Assembly: GCA_002803225.1 (NCBI GenBank)
Contig: NXFV01000482.1
Coordinates: forward strand, 42,033-106,032
DNA: 64,000 nucleotides
Direction: 5' to 3'
Source of the DNA: Gamarada debralockiae
Lineage: Eukaryota > Ascomycota > Leotiomycetes > Helotiales > Hyphodiscaceae
The translations under genes were made by a program, and so were the position numbers. This document shows positions 51,198 to 52,101 of this stretch, one piece after another (the stretch's first letter is position 1; each line of letters opens with the position of its first letter). Below the pieces are notes generated by a model. The model had not been told where the DNA came from, searched no databases, and saw only the letters and a list, made by a program, of their open reading frames with translations.

Positions 51198-51952
51198 TGG
51201 GTTGGGCACAGGGTTACGATTTGACGAGTGATGATACATGGGCTTGTTTAATCATGTGAGGTTCTAGGGGACATGATTGACGACAACACACGGCATGGGA
51301 TTAGGGGTTCATGGTCTTGCATTGGTATACGGATGGGAACAATTAGCATAGCGTTTCGGTTTTCAGGAAGTCTGCATAGCGAACTAAATAGACTGCTTTT
51401 CTGTTATCAATTTCATGGCATTCAAACATCCCCTCCTGTCGTGCGACTGGGGTACTGTCAGCGTGATTCAGTGGACAACCTTCCGAGGTGGCACAGATGA
51501 TCAGATGAATCGGATGCTGCCACGACTAGTCAGTCATCGGCGATGACATGATGTCATAGCAACCGCTCAGGGAGATCTAATTCGAGGTCAAAGTCAGGAA
51601 TCTTTCGAATATCAAGGCCCTAAGAATAACTCTGGCTCTGCCGCAACCACGCGGTTGCGCGGCATCAGTGATCTCGTCTTAGGATCAAAGTAAAAATTCA
51701 ACAAGAAGATAGAAAGACAAGTTATGAACATGCATCTCGCATAGCATCTCACATAGGTACTGGTATTGAAAGCAAGGGTCTGAGAAAAGGGTGCTTCCAG
51801 TCTCTAACCAGAGTGGGTCCAAAGCAGCCCTCGAAAAAGCAACACATCAAGAGCCCCCCCACGAAAAAAGAAACAAAAAAAATTCCAAAGCCATGGAACT
51901 GGAATAATCTGAACCATGAGAAAGAATGCCAAAATGAAAGAAAGAAACCCTA
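51198..51952. other. Intergenic, nothing recognised
   Basis: 3' flanks of the acidic-protein gene and of the tRNA gene. On the minus strand, beyond the tRNA 3' end, there is a T-rich stretch (51851-51945 has runs of A on the plus strand) that could end Pol III transcription. Confidence 0.4.
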
Positions 51953-52101
51953 CGACGAAAGCAGGATTTGAACCTGCGCCTCCGAAGAGAATAGATGTCT
52001 GGAATCCAGGAAATTCTAGTCTATCTGTTGGATTGTTAGTTACGGTTTTTGGGGAATTGAAGAGGGGGACGAACCGCATTAGACCGCTCTGCCATTTCGC
52101 C
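51953..52101 (-). tRNA. tRNA-Ser(AGA) with two insertions
   Basis: Minus strand, 5' end at 52101. The acceptor stem GGCGAAA pairs with TTTCGTC (one G-T pair), discriminator G. The A box is TGGCAGAGCGG and the B box GGTTCAAATCC. The D stem GCA/TGC is followed by G26 at 52075. The anticodon stem is ATAGA (52024-52020) with TCTAT (51995-51991), the loop is CT-AGA-A-A, anticodon AGA at 52017-52015. The long variable arm CTC-TTCG-GAG marks a class II tRNA; T stem GCAGG/CCTGC. The canonical intron of 17 nt lies after A37 (52013-51997), and its third-last base G can pair with C32, as in normal tRNA introns. A further 50 nt lie between positions 26 and 27. Without both insertions the molecule is a standard serine tRNA. 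Confidence 0.85.
52025..52074 (-). other. 50-nt spliceosomal-intron-like insertion inside tRNA-Ser
   Basis: The insertion starts GTTCGT, has a pyrimidine-rich stretch (CCCCCTCTTC), a branch-site motif ACTAAC 12 nt before the end, and closes AACAG. Its length is within the 47-67 nt range of protein-gene introns in this window. It sits exactly between G26 and A27. It shows no homology to the tRNA body. Whether any machinery removes it from a Pol III transcript is unknown. Confidence 0.6.

Follow-up and report, generated by a model that had tools for sequence, protein, structure and literature searches.

Nuclear tRNA introns between positions 37 and 38 (37/38) are cut by the tRNA endonuclease. 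More generally, two splicing systems are held apart, with the spliceosome acting on the transcripts of RNA polymerase II (Pol II), and an endonuclease and a ligase acting on tRNAs. Three sets of observations lie close to this boundary. First, according to PMC5832005, frequent interruption by introns was known at the time in just two small structured RNAs, U3 and U6. Second, ectopic spliceosomal introns have been described in the rDNA of lichen fungi, from which they are removed in vivo, and yeast removed one such intron from a Pol I rRNA; the word “tRNA” is absent from the main text of that paper (PMC8527467). Third, PMC4090602 supposes that non-canonical tRNA introns are uncommon in the genomes of eukaryotes, excepting nucleomorphs and a red alga, and takes insertions in the D and T arms elsewhere as pseudogenes; the string “spliceosom” is absent from that text. 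Our search of the open-access literature turned up no account of a tRNA gene with spliceosomal introns; subscription journals and preprints lie mostly outside it, so that an unseen report is possible.

A tRNA-Ser(AGA) gene with two kinds of intron

We refer to the whole stretch of DNA analysed as “the window” (64,000 nt, C197:42033-106032); it is nuclear DNA of an ascomycete and part of a genome of 54.3 Mb in 1112 contigs. The sole Rfam match above gathering score in the entire window is a tRNA-Ser(AGA) gene on the minus strand (Table 1). The original prediction had described this gene as carrying a 17-nt intron at 37/38 and a further 50-nt insert at 26/27 that resembles an mRNA intron. A fresh reading of the minus strand gave the same coordinates for the exons and both introns, and the GT start, the CTAAC near the end and the final CAG of the insert are all present. 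The 5' site of the insert is weaker than GTAAGT. The presumed branch adenosine lies 11 nt from the end of the insert.

Table 1. Features of the interrupted tRNA-Ser(AGA) gene and its surroundings (window positions)
Feature	Positions	Strand	Basis or remark
tRNA-Ser(AGA) gene, class II, two introns	51953..52101	-	Rfam RF00005, 36.1 bits (gathering score 29); ARAGORN on spliced form
Exon 1: acceptor 5' strand, D arm and G26, 27 nt	52075..52101	-	Sequence
Spliceosomal-type intron at 26/27, 50 nt, GTTCGT...ACTAAC...CAACAG	52025..52074	-	Sequence and deletion scan
5' splice site GTTCGT	52069..52074	-	
Branch motif CTAAC	52035..52039	-	Presumed branch A at 52036; putative branch role
Exon 2a: positions 27-37, anticodon AGA	52014..52024	-	Sequence
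Canonical 37/38 tRNA intron, 17 nt, endonuclease type	51997..52013	-	ARAGORN on spliced form
Exon 2b: position 38 through discriminator G73	51953..51996	-	Sequence
Intact B box, GGTTCAAATCC	51964-51974	-	
Upstream AAATAAG element, common to other tRNA genes of the genome	52134..52140	-	Putative function
First TTTT downstream	51931..51934	-	Possible Pol III terminator, 18 nt past discriminator

With the insert left in, ARAGORN reads the gene as tRNA-Gly(tcc) and gives it a 57-nt intron; with the insert removed, the call changes to tRNA-Ser(aga) with a 17-nt intron and a score of 107.4, in line with the original prediction. The 26/27 junction of the spliced gene reads ...GCG followed by ATAGACTAGAA..., and removal of the insert leaves a molecule with 7/7 acceptor, 3/4 D-stem, 5/5 anticodon-stem and 5/5 T-stem pairs. 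Deletions of 30–90 nt in this gene yield 6310 distinct products, only one of which outscores the GT-AG product under our own cloverleaf scorer, and that product has the wrong anticodon, CCT. ARAGORN rates two alternative GT-AG choices higher (112.5 and 108.2), both of them again with anticodon CCT. The fit of the GT-AG insert is not a matter of chance.

A genome search with the window gene found one relative, C870:28562-28711, which is a second tRNA-Ser(AGA) gene with an insert of its own (GTAAGT...ACTAAC...ATCAG). This insert is at 28/29, two positions off, and is unlike that of the window gene. When either insert is removed, the same anticodon arm results, ...GCGATAGACTAGAA.... Two compensatory pairs (5-68 and 6-67) set apart the acceptor stems of the two genes, GGCGAAA/TTTCGTC and GGCGCGA/TCGCGTC, and this suggests that both genes are under selection. 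An uninterrupted Ser(AGA) junction, sought across the genome as an 18-mer with up to two mismatches, matched two places, neither of them a tRNA; such a search could miss a gene with a different anticodon stem. The original prediction had left room for the insert having killed this copy. This is unlikely, since the genome yielded two Ser(AGA) copies, each with a GT-AG insert, no uninterrupted copy was found, and the acceptor changes are compensatory. The Ser exon had no match in prokaryote genome contigs, as expected.

Interrupted tRNA and U6 genes across the genome

Patterns based on the D arm matched 117 places in the genome (16, 64, 32 and 5 for the individual patterns), 84 of which were read and 33 not, so that intron-free copies of any isotype may be missed. 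Reversed patterns used as controls gave 13, 32, 31 and 12 matches, and many of the D-arm matches are therefore due to chance. Nuclear tRNA genes account for 26 of the 84 places read; GT/GC-AG introns are present in 16 of these and absent from 8, and 2 are degenerate. TAGT-type and other extra D-arm matches were mostly not tRNAs (one of eight was new, a Gly gene on C67, followed by none of four). Genes for tRNA-Ser(CGA), tRNA-Asp and tRNA-Glu, all without such introns, were found outside the D-arm patterns.

The 16 interrupted genes lie on 16 contigs and together hold 25 mRNA-type introns of 45–60 nt, with up to three per gene. They comprise Ser(AGA) (two genes), Ser(UGA), Leu(UAA), Lys(CTT), Arg(ACG), Arg(TCG), Asn(GTT), Thr(AGT), elongator Met(CAT), Trp(CCA), Gly(GCC) (two genes), Ile(AAT) (two genes) and Cys(GCA). 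Trp and Arg(ACG) have three introns each. Most of the 16, including the window gene, also have a 37/38 intron. The introns are found in the acceptor, D and anticodon stems, the variable loop and the T arm. In the 5' half, the sites are 4/5, 6/7 (three genes), 23/24, 26/27 (three), 27/28, 28/29 (two) and 30/31; in the 3' half, they are the variable loop (two), 51/52, 53/54 (three), 54/55, 55/56, 57/58, 60/61, 61/62 and 64/65 (two). Both Arg genes have an intron at 6/7, and this shared position suggests an old, shared gain. The two tRNA-Ile genes are reciprocal: the 4/5 intron of the copy on C491 is absent from the copy on C844, and the 26/27 and 54/55 introns of the latter are absent from the former. 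The Ile copy on C491 had been considered as a gene free of such introns, which was rejected because its acceptor stem is split at 4/5. Similarly, a candidate Ala(TGC) gene on C437 was rejected, this gene being Cys(GCA).

Two further loci were noted. At C397:736-1109 (+) (L011), two tRNA-Gly(GCC) genes lie less than 400 bases apart, one with and one without a 53/54 intron. At C810:5613-5684 (+) (L083), a degenerate tRNA-Trp has none of the three introns of the Trp gene on C1016 at those junctions; it is either an old intron-free copy or a processed copy.

Introns of the same type occur in U6. Of the genome's two U6 genes, one (C1066:53003-53125 (-), L108) has two GT-AG introns of 55 and 52 nt, and the other (C507:132-234) is uninterrupted. 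All 14 copies of 5S rRNA above the cut-off are full length and uninterrupted, in a search that disfavours interrupted copies. Other tRNA-like sequences include two neighbours on C68 (L017, a covariance-model match at C68:96979, and L042, at C68:97412), which read GGGAATGTAG...TTCRATTCCAG with a long middle part. One repeat family (L065, L068, L071, L073, L081 and L085) has an A-box-like core, TAGCGCAATCGGGAAGYGCTYATACT, and is possibly a tRNA-derived SINE. A second family (L030, L049, L054, L060, L062, L067, L075 and L094) is marked by TTTTTGGC and an A-box-like core, followed by AAAGCTATTC or similar.

Splicing in silico restores the expected tRNA throughout. Without splicing, ARAGORN (relaxed threshold, introns up to 60 nt) gives the expected isotype for 1 of the 16 genes (Thr, 86.4), and if introns up to 70 nt are allowed, it also names the Gly gene on C397 (88.0). 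With splicing, under the same relaxed threshold, the isotype fits the anticodon in all 16, with scores of 105.7–117.1; this is comparable to the 105.6–116.7 obtained for 10 tRNAs of the same genome that lack such introns. In four cases (both Ser(AGA), Arg(ACG) and Trp), the model kept is not ARAGORN's top choice, slightly higher-scoring GT-AG alternatives being available; there, agreement with the paralogue and with the anticodon decided which model was retained. A search filtered for branch motifs gave no model for three loci, namely, Ile on C844 and two degenerate loci, Trp on C810 and Ile on C561. Both introns of Ile on C844 were set by hand, and the second has no CTRAY.

The models were picked with GT/GC-AG ends; motif-blind support comes from two other approaches. 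In the first, comparison with paralogues, the GT-AG choice is among the one to four tied best deletions at 11 of 12 junctions. The junction that fails is U6 intron A, because the 5' parts of the two U6 copies differ too much. In the second, all deletions of 30–90 nt were scanned after removal of the gene's other introns, with between 206 and 6377 distinct products per intron. The GT/GC-AG product was the unique best in 17 of 25 cases, tied best in 2 and beaten in 6. The products that beat it numbered one each for the first Ser(AGA) gene and Thr, five for Met intron 1 and 12 for the first intron of Ile on C844; the two variable-loop introns, where length is unconstrained, were beaten by 202 and 2 products.

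The alternative that survives best, itself very improbable, is that the interrupted genes are dead copies and that working intron-free genes lie elsewhere in the genome. Intron-free genes do exist, including ones for Gly(GCC), Lys(CTT) and Cys(GCA), which also have interrupted copies, and two degenerate copies (Trp on C810 and Ile on C561) are present. The interrupted genes, however, are structurally sound after splicing: the acceptor stem has 7/7 pairs in 16/16, the D stem 4/4 in 10 and 3/4 in 6, the anticodon stem 5/5 in 14 and 4/5 in 2, and the T stem 5/5 in 15 and 4/5 in 1. Stem changes between copies are compensatory (Gly 3-70, 7-66 and 52-62; Lys 7-66), and in 14 of the 16 genes a T run follows the 3' end by no more than 21 nt (53 nt in Lys; Ile on C844 reaches the contig end). 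Both known Ser(AGA) genes are interrupted, with no tRNA recovered by the junction search described above, and decay would not preserve GT-AG in 11 of 12 paralogue junctions. Pseudogenes would be expected to have broken stems and intact copies elsewhere; here the stems are intact, and the search for an uninterrupted Ser(AGA) gene found none. The genes have the cloverleaf after splicing, the boxes and the T run of functional tRNA genes, though the B box is split in half of them.

Signals for splicing and transcription

The 25 tRNA introns have a median length of 52 nt. Their termini are GT-AG in 24 and GC-AG in 1, with GTNNG at the start of 22 and YAG at the end of 23. CTRAY occurs near the end of 23/25, as against 8.0% of 2241 background GT..AG stretches from the window, and CTAAC in 18/25, as against 1.7% of the same stretches; these counts are partly circular, since a branch-motif filter proposed most of the models, with two introns lacking CTRAY added by hand. 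The best branch adenosine lies 9–13 nt from the intron end in 22/25. The mRNA introns of the window, placed between protein alignments, measure 53, 53, 47 and 49 nt in the alpha-COP gene and 61 and 63 nt in the Rpn3 gene, whose protein shares 91% identity with its counterpart in Tricladium varicosporioides and 96% with further sequences. The host is accordingly placed in the Leotiomycetes, probably in the Helotiales, and its named relatives at the protein level are Tricladium varicosporioides and Cudoniella acicularis. CTRAY is found in five of these six introns and is absent from Rpn3 intron 1. The claim that the insert matches nearby mRNA introns in size and signals thus holds for the whole set (45–60 nt versus 47–63 nt). 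The tRNA introns combine the termini and 5' consensus, the branch motif and the host-like size by which U2-type introns are recognized.

Could these introns be cut instead by the tRNA splicing endonuclease at a bulge-helix-bulge, as in a red alga and archaea? Scattered positions and multiple introns per gene do recall those systems, as far as the available text of PMC4090602 describes them. However, a complete 4-bp central helix is present in 1/25 introns and three of its four pairs in 1/25, compared with 1.0% and 6.7% in a mismatched control (one register). GT-AG ends, a branch motif and a fixed branch distance play no part in bulge-helix-bulge cutting, and the U6 introns fit it poorly. The non-standard endonuclease cut that the original prediction offered as a second route, therefore, loses ground with the geometry showing no excess over the control in that register, and we consider it even less probable than the death of the genes.

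A still fainter prospect is that an introner or transposable element with incidental splice signals has recently multiplied to give these introns, another idea raised at the outset. The introns are alike in size and scattered across many genes, but a genome search with the whole Ser(AGA) gene found no second copy of the window insert. In pairwise comparison of 27 introns, only those of two sister Gly genes match (21, with the next pair at 10 and a maximum of 13 for 300 shuffled comparisons), so intron interiors have no other shared sequence above the shuffled control. An assembly or sequencing artefact is scarcely credible: the assembly is a draft of 1112 contigs, but 25 inserts in 16 genes on 16 contigs follow one consistent splice grammar.

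The position of the T runs fits transcription of the interrupted genes by RNA polymerase III (Pol III). The B box, which we take to span positions 52–62, contains an intron in 8 of the 16 genes (at 53/54 to 61/62), and that of the window gene is unsplit. An intron within the B box should harm TFIIIC binding. In the three genes with introns at 53/54, the final AG of the intron preserves a 10/11 B-box match, AGTTCGANNCC; for the remaining five, no stretch of the precursor matches better than 8–9 of 11, versus 9–11 when spliced. Between −45 and −20, ATAAG (in most cases as AAATAAG ahead of an A/T stretch) was found in 12 of 28 genes examined, versus 2.0% in the background; it is absent upstream of both U6 genes. 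AAATAAG may be a gene-external promoter that makes damage to the B box tolerable.

A proposed pathway and its relation to known systems

Gene structures, splice signals, restored cloverleaves and paralogues with and without introns all point the same way: the window insert and its kin are, with high probability, U2-type introns in nuclear tRNA genes, removed by the spliceosome from Pol III pre-tRNAs. A spliceosomal intron in a Pol III tRNA gene, as originally predicted, is strongly supported, and the case extends to 16 tRNA genes and one U6 gene. From sequence, we infer the following order of steps. Pol III would transcribe the interrupted genes, and the spliceosome would act first, removing the GT-AG intron or introns; we place this step before folding because introns in the acceptor stem and T arm would disturb folding. 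The tRNA body would then fold and its ends would be processed, after which the tRNA splicing endonuclease and ligase would remove the 37/38 intron, giving products that are presumably used. Reverse splicing is the proposed origin of U6 introns, and the tRNA introns may possibly have arrived by the same route. Since their interiors do not match and their positions are shifted, several independent gains are suggested.

We lean, with some reserve, toward a broader reading, in which most cytosolic tRNAs depend on the spliceosome, tRNA and U6 Pol III genes have been invaded genome-wide, two independent splicing machines act on shared pre-tRNAs, and AAATAAG takes over as promoter. If so, tRNA supply would be coupled to mRNA splicing capacity, and introns could settle even within the B box once AAATAAG had taken over. 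In any event, both splicing systems seem to be required for one molecule, in essential genes. Several questions become testable: (i) whether splicing needs coupling to Pol II; (ii) how Pol III handles a split B box; (iii) in what order folding, the spliceosome and the endonuclease act; and (iv) how introns are gained, a question on which tRNA introns allow exact comparison, their hosts' mature sequences being known.

Annotation of tRNAs can overlook such interrupted genes. At gathering score, Rfam recognized 1 of 13 of them (the window gene was found separately) and also missed the uninterrupted Ser(CGA). For tRNAscan-SE 2.0, the available part of PMC8450103 describes a non-canonical intron search for the archaeal mode. 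As a speculation, introns of this kind could be the reason why few tRNAs are counted in some genomes of fungi.

What is new here is the presence of spliceosomal introns in a class of genes not reported to have them in the literature searched. Canonical 37/38 introns occur in this fungus too, and the GT-AG inserts differ from them in position. The tRNA introns of Cyanidioschyzon, nucleomorphs and archaea are similar in lying outside 37/38, in occurring several per gene and in reaching the D and T arms; they are described as depending on the endonuclease and a bulge-helix-bulge or, in the Guillardia nucleomorph, as being 3–24 nt long and of a mechanism not known (PMC4090602). By contrast, those of the present fungus are 45–60 nt long, have GT-AG ends and a branch motif, and show no excess of bulge-helix-bulge structures. 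The lichen rDNA introns are likewise of the mRNA type and lie in ascomycete genes that Pol II does not transcribe, but they interrupt Pol I-transcribed rRNA, whereas the introns described here interrupt tRNA genes of Pol III. Another related group is formed by the introns of fungal U6 snRNA and U3 snoRNA, which are also spliceosomal, GT-AG, of fungal length and located in small structured RNAs, U6 being itself a Pol III product. The present introns differ from these in having tRNAs as hosts, in spanning 13 anticodons and many positions, in often occurring several per gene, and in being found mostly alongside a 37/38 intron.
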